35,994 nucleotides of DNA from an uncultured Lachnospiraceae bacterium. Its GTDB lineage: Bacteria; Bacillota; Clostridia; Lachnospirales; Lachnospiraceae. A model generated the notes under the pieces. The model did no database searches and had not been told where the DNA came from. It worked only from the letters and a program-made list of their open reading frames with translations. The stretch is taken from NCBI GenBank assembly GCA_947629865.1, contig CANRFJ010000024.1:1-35994 (forward strand), read 5' to 3'. Shown here in pieces: positions 7,625 to 34,196 of this stretch. Position numbers and translations under genes: made by a program. The first letter of the stretch is position 1; the number at the start of each line of letters is the position of its first letter.

Positions 7625-7798
7625 TGAGGGATAGGTAACAGCGAGTGCCTATCAAAGCGTTGATGCGAGATGTTGCGCCAGAGGGCAGTGTCTTGTGAGC
7701 TTTATAAGGGTTTGACATTTACCACAATCTGGCTAGATGACTGGCGGTTGTCAAAAGAAAATGTCAGAAAAGTTCTGCTTCGGCGGAACTTTTCTTAA
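7625..7798 (+). ncRNA. Candidate small structured RNA, unassigned
   Basis: A promoter at 7590-7618 and a strong terminator at 7767-7794 bracket about 170 bases without a good reading frame. The stretch can form a GATAGG/CCTATC hairpin (about 7630-7650). A TTTGACATTT segment can pair either with TGTCAAA or with AAATGTCA further on, so two mutually exclusive folds are possible before the terminator. I do not recognise an Rfam class (it is not 6S, tmRNA, RNase P or a T-box). It could be a regulatory leader for the weak small frame that follows. Confidence 0.4.
7767..7797 (+). terminator. Strong UUCG-loop hairpin terminator
   Basis: GAAAAGTTCTGC pairs with GCGGAACTTTTC across a TTCG tetraloop; there is one T-G wobble in 12 base pairs. 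The 3' arm itself ends in TTTTC and is followed by TTAACTT, a modest T-rich tail. Reading the other strand it is also a good hairpin. Confidence 0.7.
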
Positions 7799-16462: not shown

Positions 16463-16478
16463 TATAATGTGATATAAT
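16463..16478 (+). promoter_or_regulatory. Two overlapping -10 boxes upstream of the NimA-like gene
   Basis: TATAAT occurs at 16463-16468 and again at 16473-16478, the second as TGATATAAT (extended -10). Neither has a consensus -35 box. They would drive the flavin-binding protein gene at 16574 and the kinase-like gene after it. Confidence 0.4.
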
Positions 16479-16573
16479 ATCCGCGAAAGCAATAAGCCGT
16501 GCGGAGAGGGCGGATGACAAAGCGGCTGCTTGCAGCCCTGTATTTATGGCAACATTCCGAAAAGGAGGTAAAA

Positions 16574-27311: not shown

Positions 27312-29084
27312 ATGAGACGGACAGGCAGAGTGATTTTTATATTCCTCCTGATTACCGGCTGTATGTGCGGTCTTTGGTTTTTTCAGTCCTGGCGTGAGTC
27401 TGTGCGGCAGGGAAAAAAGGAGACGTATAGCAACGTCTATGTGACAGGCGTAAGCGGAGACAGCATCACGGCGGTGGCCGGAGGGGAGAGCCGTACCTGG
27501 GAGACAGTTTCGGCCGTGACCGGACAGGCCGTGGAGGGGATTGCGGATCTGCATGTTGAGGACGAAAAAATTACAAGGATTGTCAAAAAACCTGAAACGG
27601 TGACGGGAAAGGTTCTGAAGATGTCCGGAAGTTCCATCGAACTGGAAAATTACGGCGAGGTGCGCCTGGGGCGGGATTTCGTAGTATATAAGCGAACCGG
27701 TGACGGGGCGGTTGTCCAGGGAAAAGTATCGGATATACCGATTGGCGCGGCAGAGATCCGCTTTGTGGCCGCGGGGAAAAGGCTCTGCGCCGCCGTGCTG
27801 CGGGAGAGCGGCGTGAAGAAAATACGGGTTCTTTTGAAGGACAACCACTCTTTGTCCTACAATATGGATAAGGTGGTTCTGACCGCGACGACCGATTTTA
27901 CCATTCGGAGCAATGACCGGATACAGTCCCATAAGAAGGGTGAAAGGATAACGCTGCGGCCGGACGGTGTGAACGGGCGTGCGATTGTCTCCACAGGGGG
28001 CAGGGGCAGAATCCGCGTGGAGAGCCTGAAACGCCAGTACGGCGCGCCGGAGTACAGGGGTGACTTAGAGGTGGTAAAGGCGGATGCGGCGTTGCAGCTG
28101 ATCAACGAGGTGCCGCTGGAAGAATATCTCTACAGTGTGGTGCCGAGCGAGATGCCCACGGAGTACAGGGAGGAGGCGCTGAAAGCCCAGGCCGTGTGCG
28201 CCAGAAGTTATGCGGTGCGCCAGATGGCGGGACACCGGCTGGCAAAGTACGGCGCCCATGTGGACGACAGCGTATCCTTTCAGGTATATAACAATCTGAA
28301 AGAGGACGCCAGGGCAGTCGCGGCAGTAAACGATACGAGCGGACAGGTGGTTGCCTATCAGGGGAAAACGGCGGCGACTTATTTTTTCTCTGCCTCCTGC
28401 GGCAGCACATCCGGCACAAAGGACGTGTGGTTTACCAAAAAGGAGACTCCCTATCTGACCGCGGCAGTGCAGACCTGGCCCAGGACACAGAGAGATCTCA
28501 CGGCAGAGAAGGATTTCCGCAGTTACATCGACAATCCGGACAGGACGTTGGACAGCTCCTCTCCCTGGTACCGCTGGCAGGCATCTGTCACGGCCGACAG
28601 ACTGCGGGCCTCTGTGAATCGGGGAATAAAGAGCCGGTATGCGGTGAATCCCACTCAGATACAGGTGCGGGACAAAGACGGCGCTTTTCACAGTAAAATG
28701 GTGACGGACGTAGGGGATATTAAGGATATTGTCGTCCGCAGGAGAGGGGCCGGAGGCGTCGTGTCCATGGTGGAAATTCAGGGGAGCAAAGAGACCGTGC
28801 GTGTGTATACGGAGTATAATATCCGGACGCTTTTTATCGGAGAGAACACGATATTTAAGAGACAGGACAAGAAAGAGGTGAAGGGGCTCAGCATTTTGCC
28901 AAGCGGATTTTTTTATGTCAAAAAACAGGGAAAGCAGTTTGAATTTCATGGCGGCGGCTACGGCCACGGAGTCGGAATGAGCCAGAACGGTGCCAATGCG
29001 CTGGCAGGGCAGGGAAAAAGCTATGCGGAAATCCTCACATTCTATTTTCCAGGTACGAGCGTAATATCCCGCGAATCTCTTTGA
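27312..29084 (+). CDS. SpoIID/LytB-domain protein (stage II sporulation D-like)
   Basis: A 590-residue protein with a signal anchor (residues 7-24, ITGCMCGLWFFQSW). Residues about 30-240 are a lineage-specific extension with beta-rich motifs. The SpoIID/LytB domain covers about 245-590: EVPLEEYLYSVVPSEMPTEY (catalytic Glu in PSEMP), ALKAQAVCARSYAVRQMAGH, TYFFSASCGSTSGTKDVWFT and a C-terminal FEFHGGGYGHGVGMSQNGAN. SpoIID is a lytic transglycosylase that cuts denuded peptidoglycan during engulfment. This protein is much longer than the roughly 340 residues of B. subtilis SpoIID and resembles the general LytB-type relatives. It may serve sporulation or cell-wall turnover. Its last 50 bases overlap the convergent BrkB gene. 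Confidence 0.9.
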   Translation: MRRTGRVIFIFLLITGCMCGLWFFQSWRESVRQGKKETYSNVYVTGVSGDSITAVAGGESRTWETVSAVTGQAVEGIADLHVEDEKITRIVKKPETVTGKVLKMSGSSIELENYGEVRLGRDFVVYKRTGDGAVVQGKVSDIPIGAAEIRFVAAGKRLCAAVLRESGVKKIRVLLKDNHSLSYNMDKVVLTATTDFTIRSNDRIQSHKKGERITLRPDGVNGRAIVSTGGRGRIRVESLKRQYGAPEYRGDLEVVKADAALQLINEVPLEEYLYSVVPSEMPTEYREEALKAQAVCARSYAVRQMAGHRLAKYGAHVDDSVSFQVYNNLKEDARAVAAVNDTSGQVVAYQGKTAATYFFSASCGSTSGTKDVWFTKKETPYLTAAVQTWPRTQRDLTAEKDFRSYIDNPDRTLDSSSPWYRWQASVTADRLRASVNRGIKSRYAVNPTQIQVRDKDGAFHSKMVTDVGDIKDIVVRRRGAGGVVSMVEIQGSKETVRVYTEYNIRTLFIGENTIFKRQDKKEVKGLSILPSGFFYVKKQGKQFEFHGGGYGHGVGMSQNGANALAGQGKSYAEILTFYFPGTSVISRESL

Positions 29085-29907
29085 GGGACGAGAGGAGGCG
29101 GAGATGCTTTTGCTTTTTGAGGAACTGGTTCAGCATGGCGCCGAGAAAGATGATAATGATGCAGAAGTACATCCAGAGCATGAGGAGAACCATGTATGTC
29201 AGGCTTCCGTACACCGTGGAGAAGCTTCGGTGATAGTCGATATAGAGAGAGTACAGATAGGAAAAGGCAATCCACAGAAAGGCGGATAAACCGGCTCCGG
29301 GGAGCTCATCGCGGAAGCGGGATTTGCGGTTTGGAATGAAACGGTACAGGCACAAAAAGTATATGACAAATACCAGGAAGGCCACTGCGGAGCGCAGGAT
29401 AAAGATAATCAGGTGCAGGTTCGACAGAAGCGGGAAAAACCGATAGATGGTATGCACGATCTGGTTTCCGTATACGAGGACAATCAGACTGGTGATAATC
29501 ATGACAGTAAATACAATGGTATAGACAAGGGAGAGGAGCCGTCGGATAATCAGATTGCGGCGGCCCTCCACCTCATAAATGCTGTCCAGTTCAAAGGCGA
29601 TGCTGGAAAATCCCTTAGAGGCGGCCCACAGGGTTGTGATAACGGTGATGGACAAAATAGTACCGGAGGCAGCGGCATAACTCTCCCTCAGCCAGCCGGA
29701 CACAATGGAACTGAGATTTCCGGGAATGGCAGTCTCAATCAGAGACAGCATCACTTCCTCGCTCAGGGGCGTGTACTGTAAAAGGGTAATTAGAAACATC
29801 ATAAAGGGAAACATGGACACAATGATAAAGAACGCCACCTGCGCGGCGTGAATGGATACCCGATGTTCATTAAATTTGTTGATAAACCAAATAAAGACAT
29901 TATCCAT
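29035..29907 (-). CDS. YihY/BrkB family inner membrane protein
   Basis: A 290-residue protein starting at ATG 29907 after AAGGAGGC. About six membrane helices are visible (ISIHAAQVAFFIIVSMFPFM near the start, SLTYMVLLMLWMYFCIIIIF near the end), with the family's AAQVAFFxxxSxFP motif and the mid-protein LYRFIPNRKSRFRDELPGAG. The family was once mis-annotated as RNase BN; transport or envelope roles are proposed. The final 50 bases of the coding sequence lie inside the opposite SpoIID-like gene. Confidence 0.9.
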   Translation of the reverse strand: MDNVFIWFINKFNEHRVSIHAAQVAFFIIVSMFPFMMFLITLLQYTPLSEEVMLSLIETAIPGNLSSIVSGWLRESYAAASGTILSITVITTLWAASKGFSSIAFELDSIYEVEGRRNLIIRRLLSLVYTIVFTVMIITSLIVLVYGNQIVHTIYRFFPLLSNLHLIIFILRSAVAFLVFVIYFLCLYRFIPNRKSRFRDELPGAGLSAFLWIAFSYLYSLYIDYHRSFSTVYGSLTYMVLLMLWMYFCIIIIFLGAMLNQFLKKQKHLRLLSSLKEIRGILRSYLENRM

Positions 29908-30009: not shown

Positions 30010-30290
30010 TAAAGACGAAGATGGTGCGGGCGCACAGGTCCACAGACTGCTATTTTCCTTCAGAGAGGCAGAGTCACCGGCTGAGAGTTCTGCCAGGTTC
30101 CTGTAGCAGTTGAATTTCACACCGGAGTTTTGCCCTTGAAAAGAACCGCACGGTTTTAGTAGGGGGCGGCGGCCGATACCCGTTATCGTATCTCAGAGAG
30201 AGTCTGCCGGAAAAAGCCCGGCAGGAATATGGGTGGTACCGCGGAAACATTTCGTCCCTTGCAGCAATGCTGCAGGGGACTTTTTGCGCG
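30010..30290 (+). promoter_or_regulatory. T-box riboswitch for phenylalanine, upstream of pheST
   Basis: The 14-base T-box core GGGTGGTACCGCGG lies at 30231-30244, followed by the terminator at 30254-30285; together they form the mutually exclusive antiterminator and terminator. A stem III hairpin (CTGCCGG/CCGGCAG) lies before it, and the stem I region is 30040-30140. A candidate specifier triplet TTC followed by A (30116-30118) fits tRNA-Phe, in agreement with the pheS gene downstream. Uncharged tRNA-Phe binds stem I and the T-box to prevent termination, so the synthetase is made when phenylalanine is short. The specifier is placed by eye. Confidence 0.88.
30254..30285 (+). terminator. T-box terminator
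   Basis: GTCCCTTGCAGC pairs with GCTGCAGGGGAC (one T-G wobble) around a three-base loop and is followed by TTTTT. The alternative T-box pairing uses the 5' part of this hairpin. Confidence 0.9.
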
Positions 30291-30293
30291 TAA

Positions 30294-30670
30294 GCAATGA
30301 ACACTGCACCTTTCCCTCCGGCGTCCCGACGGACGCTTGCGTCCGAATCGGGACGCCGGAGGGAAAGGTATAGGGCGAAAGCCCGCGACCTGCCTGCCGC
30401 GAAGCGGGAGGCAGGTGTAGCGTTCATTGCGAAGTGTGTGGAGCGAAGCAGAGTGCGAAAGCCCGCGCTTCGCCTCCTGCGAAGCGGGAGGCAGGTGCAG
30501 CGTTCATTGCTAAGAGTGTGGAGCGAAGCAGAGGGCGAAAGCCCGCGACCTGCCTGCCGCGAAGCGGGAGGCAGGTGCAGTGTTCATTGCTAAGAGTGTG
30601 GGGCGAAGCAGAGTGCGAAAGCCCGCGCTTCGCCTGCCGCGAAGCGGGAGGCAGGTGCAGCGTTCATTGC
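30294..30670 (+). repeat. 377-bp palindromic element with 80-base tandem repeats in the pheS leader
   Basis: The element is bounded by 18-base inverted ends, GCAATGAACACTGCACCT (30294-30311) and AGGTGCAGCGTTCATTGC (30653-30670), with one mismatch. At 30309-30368 lies a 60-base hairpin with a perfect 21-base outer stem and a seven-base inner stem. From 30375 follow 3.7 tandem units of exactly 80 bases (starting at 30375, 30455, 30535 and 30615), each opening with GCGAAAGCCCGCG. Units 1 and 3 fold around ACCTGCCTGCCGC/GCGGGAGGCAGGT; units 2 and 4 fold around CGCTTCGC/GCGAAGCG, so the repeats alternate. It is GC-rich and non-coding: 80 is not a multiple of three, so any frame shifts at each unit. 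It lies wholly between the T-box terminator and the pheS start. Confidence 0.85.
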
Positions 30671-30720
30671 GGAGCGCGGGAGCGCGGGAGCGGAAATTGT
30701 GAAAGGAAGGATACAGACGA

Positions 30721-31740
30721 ATGAAAGAAAAATTATCTCAGATTCTGGACAATGCCTTGTCCCAGATTGAAAATTCCGGAGAGATTGAGAAGTTAAACGA
30801 TATCCGGGTGGCTTTTCTGGGCAAGAAGGGAGAACTCACGGGCGTCTTAAAGTCCATGAAAGACGTGGCGCCGGAGGAGCGTCCGAAAATCGGGCAGATG
30901 GTAAATGAGGCCAGAGCCAAAATAGAGGGCCGGTTAGAGGAGAAGAAGGCGGCCTTTGAAAAGGCGCTTCGGGCGGAAAAAATGAAAGCGGAGGTCATTG
31001 ACGTAACCCTTCCGGGACGCCGTCTTGTCACCGGACACCGCCACCCCAACACCGTTGCTTTGGAGGAAGTGGAAAAAATATTTATCGGTATGGGTTATGA
31101 GGTTGTAGAGGGGCCGGAAGTGGAATATGATTACTATAACTTCGAGGCGCTGAACATTCCGGAAAACCATCCGGCCAAGGACGAGCAGGACACCTTCTAC
31201 ATCAACGACAAAATACTGCTCCGCACCCAGACGTCATCGGTGCAGGTGCATGTGATGGAGAAAGGAAAACTCCCCATACGAATGATTTCGCCGGGACGGG
31301 TATTCAGGAGCGATGATGTGGACGCCACCCATTCCCCGTCCTTTCACCAGATCGAGGGACTGGTAATAGACAAAAATATCACCTTTGCGGACTTGAAGGG
31401 AACGCTGGAGCAGTTTGCCAAGCAGTTATTCGGAGAGGACACCAGAGTAAAATTCCGCCCGCATCATTTTCCGTTCACCGAGCCGAGCGCCGAGATGGAC
31501 GTGACCTGCTTTAAGTGCGGCGGGAAGGGCTGCCGTTTCTGCAAGGGCGAGGGCTGGATCGAGATACTGGGCTGTGGAATGGTACACCCCCATGTGCTGG
31601 AGATGAGCGGGATCGATCCCGACGAATACACGGGATTTGCCTTCGGCGTGGGACTGGAGAGAATCGCGCTTTTGAAATATGAAATCGACGATATGCGCCT
31701 GCTGTATGAAAACGACATACGGTTTCTGGAGCAGTTCTGA
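30721..31740 (+). CDS. pheS: Phenylalanine-tRNA ligase alpha subunit
   Basis: A 339-residue protein starting at ATG 30721 after GAAAGGAAGG. A helical N-terminal arm (1-90) is followed by the class II catalytic core: [40 protein letters not shown] (motif 1 region), [20 protein letters not shown] and [20 protein letters not shown] (motif 2), and a motif 3 [20 protein letters not shown]. It pairs with PheT to charge tRNA-Phe with phenylalanine in the cytoplasm. Length and motifs are normal. It is controlled by the T-box in the leader, and pheT follows after 17 bases. Confidence 0.97.
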
Positions 31741-31757: not shown

Positions 31758-34196
31758 ATGAATACGCCATTATCATGGATTAAAGCCTATGTGCCGGAGT
31801 TGGAGTGCACCGAGCAGGAATATATGGACGCCATGACTTTGTCCGGTACCAAGGTAGAGGGATATGAAAAATTCGACGCCGATCTGGACAAAATCATCGT
31901 GGGAAAAATCGAGAAGATCGAGAAGCATCCGGACGCGGACAAACTGGTGGTATGTCAGGTGGCCGTTGACGAGGAGGGCACCACAATCCAGATCGTCACA
32001 GGAGCGCCCAATGTAAAAGAGGGCCAGAAGGTGCCGGTCGTTCTTGACGGAGGACGGGTGGCCGGCGGACACGACGGCAAGAAGACGCCCGGCGGGATCC
32101 GGATCAAAAAGGGAAAACTCCGCGGCGTGGAGAGCAATGGAATGATGTGTTCCATTGAGGAACTGGGTTCCTCCAGGGATTACTATCCGGACGCAGCGGA
32201 GGACGGCATCTATATACTGAGCGACAATCCGGAGTATAAGGAGGCGCCGGTGGGGAGCGACGCCATTGAACTGCTGGGCCTCAGAGACGCCAACTTTGAA
32301 TATGAGATAACCTCGAACCGCGTGGACTGCTTCGGCGTTCTCGGAATAGCCAGGGAAGCGGCGGCCACCTTCCGCAAGCCGTTTGTGCCGCCGGTAGTAA
32401 CAGAGTCCGGCAATGCGGAGAAGACGGAGGATTACATTTCCGTGGATATTGAGGCGACGGATCTGTGCAGGAGATATGTGGCAAGAGTGGTAAAGAATAT
32501 AAAACTGGCGCCGTCGCCGGAATGGATGCAGAGACGTCTGGCCGCCAGCGGCATACGCCCCATAAACAATATTGTGGATATTACAAACTATGTCATGGAG
32601 GAGTATGCGCAGCCGATGCACGCCTACGACCTGGACACGATTGCAGGACATAAAATCGTGGTAAAGAGGGCGCAGGACGGGGAGACCTTCCAGACGCTGG
32701 ATGGACAGGAGAGGGAACTGGACTCCTCCGTATTGATGATTTGCGACGGAGAGAAGGCGGTCGGATTGGCTGGTATCATGGGCGGCGAGAATTCCAAGAT
32801 TACGGACGACGTGACCACCATGCTCTTTGAGGCGGCCTGCTTTGACGGCACCAATATCCGGCTATCCGGAAAGAAACTGGGAATGCGCACGGACGCCCAG
32901 GCCAAATTTGAGAAGGGGCTGGATCCGAATACGGCGATGGAGGCGATGAACCGCGCCTGTCAGCTCATAGAGGAGCTGGGGGCAGGCGAGGTAATCGGCG
33001 GCTGCGTCGATGTGTATCCGGAGAAAAGGGAGGCGACGACCGTTTCCTATGACGTGGATAAAATCAATGCGCTGCTCGGCATCCAGGTCTCCGAGGAGGA
33101 AATGTGCGGATACTGGGATCTGGTGGAACTGACTCCGGACAGGGAGAACCACTGCGTCCATGTGCCGACCTGGAGGCAGGATATCCTCTGCATGGCAGAT
33201 CTGGCAGAGGAAGTAGCCCGCTTTTACGGATATGACAGGATACCCACCACTCTGCCGAGGGGGGAGGCCACGATGGGCGGGCTCTCCTGGCAGACGACCA
33301 TTCAGAATATAGCGCGAAACGTAGTGGAGCAGTTCGGATTTTCCGAGGGCATGACATATTCCTTTGAGAGTCCCCGCGTGTTTGAAAAACTGCTGCTGCC
33401 GGAGGACAGCCCGCTGAGGCGCTGCATCGAGATTGCAAACCCGCTGGGAGTGGACTACAGTATTATGCGGACGTCTCCGCTCAACGGGATACTGACCTCG
33501 CTGGCGACCAATTACAATCACAGGAATAAAGATGTGAGGTTATATGAGCTGGCCAATATATATCTACCCAAATCGCTGCCGCTGACGGAGCTGCCGGAGG
33601 AGAGAATGCAGCTGACGCTCGGCATGTATGGCAGGGGCGACTTCTTTGACATGAAGGGCTGTGTGGAGGCAGTCTTTGAAAAGCTGGGAATAAAGGGCGT
33701 GGTGTCATGGCAGCCGGACAGCGGCTGTCCATATCTGCATCCGGGCAGGAAGGCGGATATCCGGATCGGAGATACAGTTGTCGGCTATCTGGGAGAAATA
33801 CACCCGGAGGTCGCGGATAATTACGACATCGGCACGAAGGTTTATGTGGCCGTGCTCGATATGGAAGAACTTGCCAACCAGGCCTCTTTTGATGTAAAAT
33901 ATACGGGAGTGGCAAAATTTCCGGCAGTGACGAGGGATATCTCCCTTGTGATGAAGAAGTCCGTTCTCGCGGGCGAGGTGGAGGAAGTGATCCGCAAAAA
34001 CGGCGGCAAACTGCTGGAGGCATATAAACTCTTTGATATTTATGAGGGAGAAAACGTGGCGGCAGATGAGAAATCCCTGGCCTACTCCATTCGCTTCCGG
34101 GCATCTGACCGCACGCTGGAGGAAAAAGACGTGACGGCCGTTATGAATAAAATCCTCACCAAACTGGAATCTTTAGGAGTGACACTGAGATCGTGA
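31758..34196 (+). CDS. pheT: Phenylalanine-tRNA ligase beta subunit
   Basis: An 812-residue protein starting at ATG 31758 after AAGGAGGAG. The order is usual: EMAP/tRNA-binding domain (about 40-155, VGKIEKIEKHPDADKLVVCQ and GIRIKKGKLRGVESNGMMCS), B3/4 editing domain (about 200-390), B5 domain (about 405-475), core domain (DRIPTTLPRGEATMGGLSWQ, NPLGVDYSIMRTSPLNGILT) and the C-terminal FDX-ACB domain (KFPAVTRDISLVMKKSVLAG). It forms the alpha2-beta2 enzyme with PheS and edits mischarged Tyr-tRNA-Phe. Length is typical for the family. Confidence 0.97.
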   Translation: MNTPLSWIKAYVPELECTEQEYMDAMTLSGTKVEGYEKFDADLDKIIVGKIEKIEKHPDADKLVVCQVAVDEEGTTIQIVTGAPNVKEGQKVPVVLDGGRVAGGHDGKKTPGGIRIKKGKLRGVESNGMMCSIEELGSSRDYYPDAAEDGIYILSDNPEYKEAPVGSDAIELLGLRDANFEYEITSNRVDCFGVLGIAREAAATFRKPFVPPVVTESGNAEKTEDYISVDIEATDLCRRYVARVVKNIKLAPSPEWMQRRLAASGIRPINNIVDITNYVMEEYAQPMHAYDLDTIAGHKIVVKRAQDGETFQTLDGQERELDSSVLMICDGEKAVGLAGIMGGENSKITDDVTTMLFEAACFDGTNIRLSGKKLGMRTDAQAKFEKGLDPNTAMEAMNRACQLIEELGAGEVIGGCVDVYPEKREATTVSYDVDKINALLGIQVSEEEMCGYWDLVELTPDRENHCVHVPTWRQDILCMADLAEEVARFYGYDRIPTTLPRGEATMGGLSWQTTIQNIARNVVEQFGFSEGMTYSFESPRVFEKLLLPEDSPLRRCIEIANPLGVDYSIMRTSPLNGILTSLATNYNHRNKDVRLYELANIYLPKSLPLTELPEERMQLTLGMYGRGDFFDMKGCVEAVFEKLGIKGVVSWQPDSGCPYLHPGRKADIRIGDTVVGYLGEIHPEVADNYDIGTKVYVAVLDMEELANQASFDVKYTGVAKFPAVTRDISLVMKKSVLAGEVEEVIRKNGGKLLEAYKLFDIYEGENVAADEKSLAYSIRFRASDRTLEEKDVTAVMNKILTKLESLGVTLRS

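Follow-up and report, generated by a model that had tools for sequence, protein, structure and literature searches.

MITEs are short, non-autonomous elements with inverted ends, and sites without the element exist. The element described here, an insert in the pheST leader of an uncultured Lachnospiraceae bacterium, resembles them in being apparently non-autonomous and short, with inverted ends and element-free sites, but neither a target duplication nor a parent transposon was found for it and its interior evolves as palindromes. Like the present family, REP sequences and BIMEs with RAYT are described, in the part of the source available, as dispersed intergenic palindromes that occur as singletons and in tandem clusters (PMC3733652). 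However, these are 20-40 bp long, whereas the present element has about 140 nt and four helices, and unlike them it has no GTAG or CGTC tag, unconserved stems, few G:T pairs and no clear Y1_Tnp link. Template switching during replication can rewrite both arms of a stem together, and such correction of quasipalindromes, as outlined in the available excerpts (PMC8794818), accounts for arms that change jointly and for stems without mismatches; it is a mutational process, however, which here would act repeatedly inside one element family. Additionally, the RNA family Clostridiales-1 was rated as probably RNA and probably not cis-regulatory in the accessible portion of Weinberg et al. 2010 (PMC2864571). 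No description of the present family was found in the available parts of the open-licence literature on Lachnospiraceae repeats, RAYT in Firmicutes, template switching, Clostridiales-1 and DNA minihairpins, and the portion seen of a study on structured RNAs of human microbiomes makes no mention of it (PMC8040213).

The window, i.e. the whole stretch of DNA analysed, comprises 35,994 nt (contig CANRFJ010000024.1 of assembly GCA_947629865.1, positions 1 to 35,994). On its + strand, a T-box leader of pheST (30015-30262; Rfam RF00230, 88.7 bits, E 8.5e-20, against a gathering score of 93), which is a host regulatory RNA outside the element, ends in an intrinsic terminator (30254-30285), read in the sequence as a hairpin at approximately 30254-30280 with a T-run at 30281-30285 that forms the T-rich insertion flank. 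Analysis of the window sequence places an insert of 377 nt 3' of this terminator, followed on the same strand by pheS (30721-31740; PF01409, PF02912) and pheT (31758-34196; PF17759, PF03483, PF03147). A gene for a BrkB-family membrane protein (29035-29907; PF03631) is divergent from pheST, and a drum RNA, of a family already described, is present at 7655-7769 (RF02958, 83.6 bits).

After the T-run, the + strand carries in order the 5' box GCGCGTAA (30286-30293; consensus NCGCGWWR in the logo of 97 copies), the inverted end GCAATGAACACTGC that forms the 5' strand of helix P1 (30294-30307), the long variable hairpin P2 with a GCTTGC-type tip (30308-30369), the mini-hairpin P3 GGGCGAAAGCCC (30373-30384, folding in DNA as GGGC-GAAA-GCCC), the hairpin P4 ACCTGCCTGCCGCGAAGCGGGAGGCAGGT with a GAA triloop in GCGAAGC (30388-30416, also from the DNA fold) and the complementary end GTAGCGTTCATTGC, which is the 3' strand of P1 (30417-30430); more 80-nt units follow. 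The P1 5' strand is an inverted repeat both of 30417-30430 and of the tandem-unit ends. These units begin at 30372 and have lengths of 80, 80, 80 and about 59 nt: unit 1 (type A, 30372-30451), unit 2 (type B, 30452-30531), unit 3 (type A, 30532-30611) and the partial unit 4 (type B, 30612-30670), all on the + strand and delimited by repeat comparison. The identity is 0.938 between units 1 and 3, 0.875 between units 1 and 2, and 0.887 between units 2 and 3; unit 4, compared over 80 nt, has lower identities of 0.75, 0.787 and 0.75 to units 1 to 3, since its final 20 nt or so diverge. The element has a G+C content of 64% relative to 47% for the window, and holds seven of the eight GCGAAGC and four of the five GCGAAAGC occurrences on the + strand of the window.

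What the initial annotation had observed in this insert is borne out, and its interpretation is so in part. It had described an insertion with 18-base inverted ends after the T-box terminator, and the ends are complementary at 17 of 18 bases; the alternation of 80-base units (A-B-A-B) is real, as seen from the unit identities and from ACCTGCCTGCCGC vs GCTTCGCCTSCYGC. The 60-base perfect hairpin corresponds to P2, in which the 22-bp arms are indeed 100% complementary, but which is 62 nt long with an 18-nt tip that is not fully paired, folding as CGGACG-CTTG-CGTCCG with two unpaired A. The extent of 30294-30670 stands except at the 5' edge, which family alignment moves to approximately 30286, at a GCGCG box that follows the T-run immediately. 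There is no need to invoke mirror-like folding of the entire element: the basic unit of the family consists of P1-P2-P3-P4, and the 80-nt units add further copies of P3-P4-P1'. The RNA fold of 30280-30720 has a z of -13.5, far above chance; the single-stranded DNA fold of 30286-30430 has a z of -13.5 and that of the opposite strand -12.1, the DNA folding energies of the two strands being nearly equal (-65 vs -63.8).

The insert is one copy of a dispersed family of small folding elements in gut Lachnospiraceae. The family plan consists of a T-rich site, a CGCG box and a helix P1 that encloses P2, P3 and P4, and the P3-P4-P1' units may repeat. The initial annotation had called for a search for related units in the genome and its relatives, for which DNA comparison is nearly blind: in its own genome it returned nothing besides the element itself and its hairpin on the other strand, and among 98 relatives it returned a match in only one (G014), of 68 nt, at the pheS leader. 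A pattern for the mini-hairpin matched in 6 of the 39 genus genomes, counting the own one, and in at least 120 stretches of a public genome set; the 80 matches listed are mostly from Lachnospiraceae, with a few chance matches in unrelated genera. The exact pattern was present in 18 of 397 sampled genomes of the bacterial family and had no match in viral_contigs, where diverged copies could escape an exact pattern. The motif set comprises 133 matches in at least 120 loci, including a few chance ones in unrelated genera (L070, L103, L114 and L126). Within L041-L198, the 114 matches with a GAGCNNTGC start were kept, which gave 97 distinct copies. The 5' edge consensus of these is T-N-CGCG-WWRGC-AATGAGCMGTGC, and P2 is 57-66 nt long in 92 of them, followed by P3, P4 and the P1 partner.

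The structure model R1 finds the copies that DNA comparison misses. It matches the window unit at 30286-30428 (95 bits, E 5.9e-22) and, within the tandem units, at 30489-30588 (38.3 bits), and it has eight matches in the own genome, at six separate sites among those listed. At E up to 0.01, matches were obtained in 37 of the 39 genus genomes, own included, with at least 25 copies in G003, 19 in G034, 15 in G033 and 15 in G031; these numbers are lower bounds because only the best 81 of approximately 195-750 first-look candidates per genome were scored. Across the class, R1 (E up to 1e-4) matched 2 of 60 genomes, namely the own genome and one of the same family, and none of the 58 class genomes outside the bacterial family, which doubles as a specificity control; searches over more than 40 genomes, i.e. 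this one and that with the Clostridiales-1 model in the bacterial family, used stricter filters. The family name is not a strict limit, given that R1 matches L074 from Acetobacterium paludosum (E 6.7e-8) and L078 from Eubacteriaceae (E 6.2e-18). Overall, the family exemplifies a class of repeats that is missed by BLAST-based repeat finding.

Within the own genome, a sub-family comprises two full copies, one on contig C17 and one on C7, with a similarity of 89%, as well as truncated copies on C9 and at 16467-16535 of the window and a tandem P4-unit array on C4. In the window, the truncated copy has 91% BLAST identity to an own-genome copy, L230 (E 8.5e-22), and is located upstream of a pyridoxamine-phosphate-oxidase-like gene (PF12900). 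Its CGCG box, P1 5' strand and P2 5' arm are at 16481-16535 on the + strand (R1 E 0.025), starting 3 nt after a TATAAT box (16473-16478) and stopping just after the P2 tip CTGCTTGCAG.

In comparison to described RNA families, the window element has no Rfam match at cut-off. Matches below threshold are chiefly of miRNA type to the long hairpin, and the miRNA-type ones are regarded as chance matches such as any long palindrome would give. The Clostridiales-1 model (RF01699) has no match to the window copy at E up to 10 and none in the own genome. Among 22 sibling loci, it matches five over the full length (L018, L218, L236, L012 and L300) at 34.4-40.7 bits, below the gathering score of 48, and has no match in the other 17, which include L229 and L230 of the own genome. 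Conversely, R1 has no match at E up to 1 in 16 Clostridiales-1 loci. True Clostridiales-1 copies are present in 31 of 60 genomes sampled in the bacterial family, in other genera, with at least 38 matches in one genome, and the two families are alike in having many copies per genome. They also share the succession of P1, a variable P2 with a GCTTGC tip, P3 and a P4 with a GNA-type loop and a purine internal loop (14 of 16 copies read), as is apparent from the full-length RF01699 alignment of L018 and from the sequences set side by side. In contrast, P1 is TGATGCC/GGCATCA in Clostridiales-1 and GAGCCGTGC/GCACGGCTC in the element, and Clostridiales-1 has a long P3 domain and different flanks. The two therefore look like sister designs, with the element outside Clostridiales-1 as the model defines it.

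If the insert were an ordinary part of the leader, the initial annotation had reasoned, the same sequence would be found at this place in all relatives. The pheS loci of 30 genomes, own included, were fetched and 29 leaders were viewed (L037 was left out). This element class is present in five of them, own included, and the G014, G034, G036 and G033 leaders have the same frame with entirely different long hairpins, such that unrelated palindromes replace P2. The remaining 24 leaders are without this class; G031, G006, G005 and G038, for instance, have short leaders. With such element-free leaders in congeners, the insert behaves as an insertion. Other sites are likewise filled, element-free or reduced to remnants. 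Site B, at the end of purL before maf, is filled in G000, G014, G033 and G031, has a short remnant in G036, is ambiguous in G032 and has no element in G006, G028 and G025. Site A is filled in G000, G014 and G033, is cut down in G031 and has no element in G032, G035, G025, G006 and G028. Between dnaK and dnaJ, the element is present in G034, G033 and G036 and absent in G006 and G035, and G014 and G000 have hairpin remnants by reading. Orthologous positions without the element, as known for MITEs, therefore exist at purL-maf and other sites. Other hairpin-rich or tandem repeats precede pheS in L015, L032 and L034, so that this part of the leader may be an insertion hot spot.

These comparisons bear on two other explanations. 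The window genome is a draft of 51 contigs, and an assembly error or a chance palindrome could in principle produce such a structure; given related elements at the same site in G014, G034, G036 and G033 and a family found in many independent assemblies, this is refuted for the family and its probability for the insert is negligible. A regulatory part of the pheST leader, such as an additional attenuator downstream of the T-box or a stabiliser of the mRNA there, would fit the occurrence at the same place in five species, own included, as well as copies in other T-box leaders (L231 and L238 by reading, and L218). However, it is very unlikely in view of the 24 of 29 pheS leaders that do without this class and of members of the same family at gene ends (purL, dnaK, rpsI, pyrI) and after -10 boxes, and the P2 stem in the window has no T-run behind it. 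P2 as a terminator was dismissed by eye: some sibling P2s look terminator-like, but that of the window does not. The element lies downstream of the T-box terminator and would thus be transcribed as extra 5' UTR on read-through alone, and in the pheST leader it is probably tolerated rather than regulatory.

The 5' junction is fixed after T-rich sequence. At the position matching 30285, T is present in 92% of the 97 copies. Upstream context was counted for the 91 copies with enough upstream sequence: 36 have a T-run, 21 a terminator-like hairpin with a T-run, 18 a -10-like box, and 32 overlap a gene end. At least one of T-run, -10 box and gene end is present in 78 of the 91, and at random positions the corresponding value is 8.5% for the same strand and 20.9% for intergenic positions on both strands. 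Among the 18 TA[TAC]AAT boxes located no more than 40 nt upstream, the distance from box end to CGCG box is exactly 3 nt in 12. Congeners that lack the element at pyrI, dnaK and site A already have a coding end similar to the 5' box, and part of this box may thus be target. Among the 105 loci with a downstream ORF, 82 have this ORF in the same orientation as the element. An extended -10-like box both precedes and follows the element in L364 and L367 (own contigs C17 and C9), which share approximately 30 nt of 3' flank (AAAAAATKKGRTATAATRACGAGGAAAGTGCC) before their sequences differ. No target site duplication was demonstrated, with -10-like sequence flanking these two copies on both sides.

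With hairpin ends and a strand-specific insertion downstream of T-rich sequence, the element resembles those handled by Y1/HUH enzymes, and a RAYT or IS200/IS605 transposase that mobilises the element would make it a REP/BIME proper. Y1_Tnp (PF01797) was found in 10 of the 39 genus genomes, which are drafts; in the own genome the match is a fragment within a frame of 82 aa, and the copy-rich G034 (19 copies) has an open Y1 gene. However, none was found in the drafts of the other copy-rich genomes G003 (25), G033 (15) and G031 (15). The 5' edge also lacks the GTAG or CGTC tag reported in the available part of PMC3733652, the 5' logo of the 97 copies being TNCGCGWWRGCAATGAGC. Y1_Tnp does not track copy number, although G034 has an open Y1, and a RAYT/IS200 mobiliser is not favoured; the Y1/HUH explanation is considered quite unlikely. 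A recurrent neighbour protein was also sought by clustering 870 ORFs around 120 loci, viewing the 25 largest clusters by eye and checking two against Pfam. The largest (23 loci) consists of ABC transporters (three members checked) and the one member checked of the next (7 loci) is an AraC regulator, both common gene families, and this candidate was rejected. No mobilising enzyme was thus found among the Y1_Tnp matches of the 39 genus genomes or in the neighbour clusters viewed.

Covariation is standard evidence for functional RNA structure, and in this family it is very strong. Alignment A1 comprises 45 of 68 copies with an exact P1 partner within 36 nt; P2 was unselected, whereas the conservation of P1 and P3 is partly circular because of the search pattern and the A1 selection. 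In its 45 units, 88.2% of cells are paired vs 65.7% after shuffling, with a covariation of 0.552 vs 0.147. For 112 distinct model-aligned units, in which the alignment leans to structure, the values are 91.3% vs 60.9% and 0.641 vs 0.145. All 19 pairs of P2 covary. Relative to the commonest pair, both partners differ in 334 P2 cells of A1 and a single partner in 13, and G:T occurs in 23 of 716 paired cells. When P2 hairpins were folded (96 of the 97 copies, L172 being too short for the length filter), G:T accounted for 78 of 2352 pairs (3.3%), vs 188 of 2047 (9.2%) in 182 terminator hairpins from the same loci; for 22 pheS leaders folded at minimum energy the value was 17.8%, which is an inflated comparison. 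At one site, different species have different P2 palindromes whose arms change jointly: orthologous copies at four sites, compared over all species pairs, gave 162 both-arm, 23 one-arm and 94 unchanged comparisons. The G:T count in this ortholog set (16 of 224 paired cells) is less clear-cut, with 46 further mismatches in ungapped pairing.

Structured RNA would favour GNRA loops; GAAA and CTTG loops confer stability on RNA hairpins too, and GNAB loops are stable in DNA. According to the available part of PMC4686876, DNA mini-hairpins that carry a GNA or GNNA loop on a G-C stem are extraordinarily stable, and GCGAAGC melts near 78 °C. In the 97 pattern-picked copies, where a loop start of GAA was imposed, the P3 loops are GAA (44), GAAT (27), GAAA (19) and GAAC (7). 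Alignment A3, fitted to the R1 structure, adds to 57 pattern-picked units 57 others, which include partial and tandem ones and are not all independent; the P3 loops of these others are GNA in 13, GNNA outside GNRA in 14, GNAB in 13, GNRA in 12 and other in 5, and the GNA type accounts for 31 of their P4 loops. A CTTG tip is found on P2 in 43 of 96 pattern-picked copies.

A structured RNA family, sister of Clostridiales-1 and with a role either as an sRNA or, in leaders and 3' ends, as a cis RNA, would explain the covariation as RNA selection. It would also fit the plan shared with Clostridiales-1, whose model reaches five of 22 sibling loci over the full length at 34-41 bits, the co-orientation of 82 of 105 downstream ORFs, and a CTTG tip and GAAA loop that are stable in RNA. 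Several points weigh against mobile DNA: neither a mobilising enzyme nor a target duplication was found, G:T pairs are present, loops are RNA-stable, the two strands fold alike and the ORF co-orientation fits an RNA role too. Nevertheless, an RNA family is rather unlikely, as G:T is rarer in P2 than in terminators, only 12 of 57 units outside the pattern have GNRA loops in P3, even orthologous copies do not share a conserved stem sequence and there is no common neighbour, the largest protein cluster being ABC transporters. Strong covariation in which G:U intermediates are few, together with loops of DNA type and the replacement of entire stems at fixed sites, points instead to DNA hairpins and template switching.

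Copies are dispersed, orthologous sites are filled, empty or reduced to remnants, the 5' junction follows T-rich sequence, and P2 is unrelated between orthologs. With moderate probability, the insert is a non-autonomous, strand-specific mobile DNA hairpin element of approximately 140 nt plus extra tandem units that is tolerated in the leader. Its conserved feature would be a strand-specific DNA fold, as modelled, in which P1 closes the junction of P2, P3 and P4. A folded single-stranded element would be handled by a host or transposon enzyme and joined 3' of T-rich sequence. Complementarity of the P2 arms would be kept mainly by intrastrand template switching, with one arm copied from the other; as this would rewrite both arms at once, stems could be hypervariable and yet palindromic, and BLAST would miss relatives. 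Slippage between short repeats would account for the P3-P4-P1' units in tandem. The design is unfamiliar, as the initial annotation had remarked in likening the insert to a REP/MITE-type mobile palindrome: a dispersed palindromic element unlike GTAG/CGTC REPs is what is found, and its mobility is inferred. The insert is thus real and, although of ordinary size, unusual; it belongs to a hidden family of dispersed structured DNA that is most likely mobile and tolerated, and whose striking property is that stems are rewritten with the fold kept. The family also offers a natural system in which the turnover of palindromes in gut bacteria can be followed.

A wider proposal is possible, though rather less likely than not. 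A hidden superfamily of cruciform DNA, including Rfam Clostridiales-1, may fill Lachnospiraceae genomes and be conserved in nothing but its fold as single-stranded DNA, with mini-hairpins of GNA type, GCTTGC tips and paired ends. It would rewrite its stems by template switching and join the non-template strand exactly where transcription exposes that strand, at the T-runs of terminators and 3 nt beyond -10 boxes, and its covariation would have been mistaken for RNA evidence. If the covariation of the present family does stem from DNA hairpins and template switching, some of the curated 'sRNA' families, e.g. Clostridiales-1, may represent mobile DNA, and a G:U test is needed in screens based on covariation.

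Other hairpin-junction elements that resemble this plan but differ in P1 occur at pyrI of G031 (L324, 1-190), at rpsI of G033 and G014 (L312 and L313, 40-240) and in the pheS leader of G030 (L027). They have a GCTTGC-type or other tip and a purine-rich P4, and are possibly further classes of one superfamily. Additionally, L121 and L133 have similar P2 hairpins with the tip inverted (CTGCAAGCAG vs CTGCTTGCAG), which is the footprint expected of template switching.
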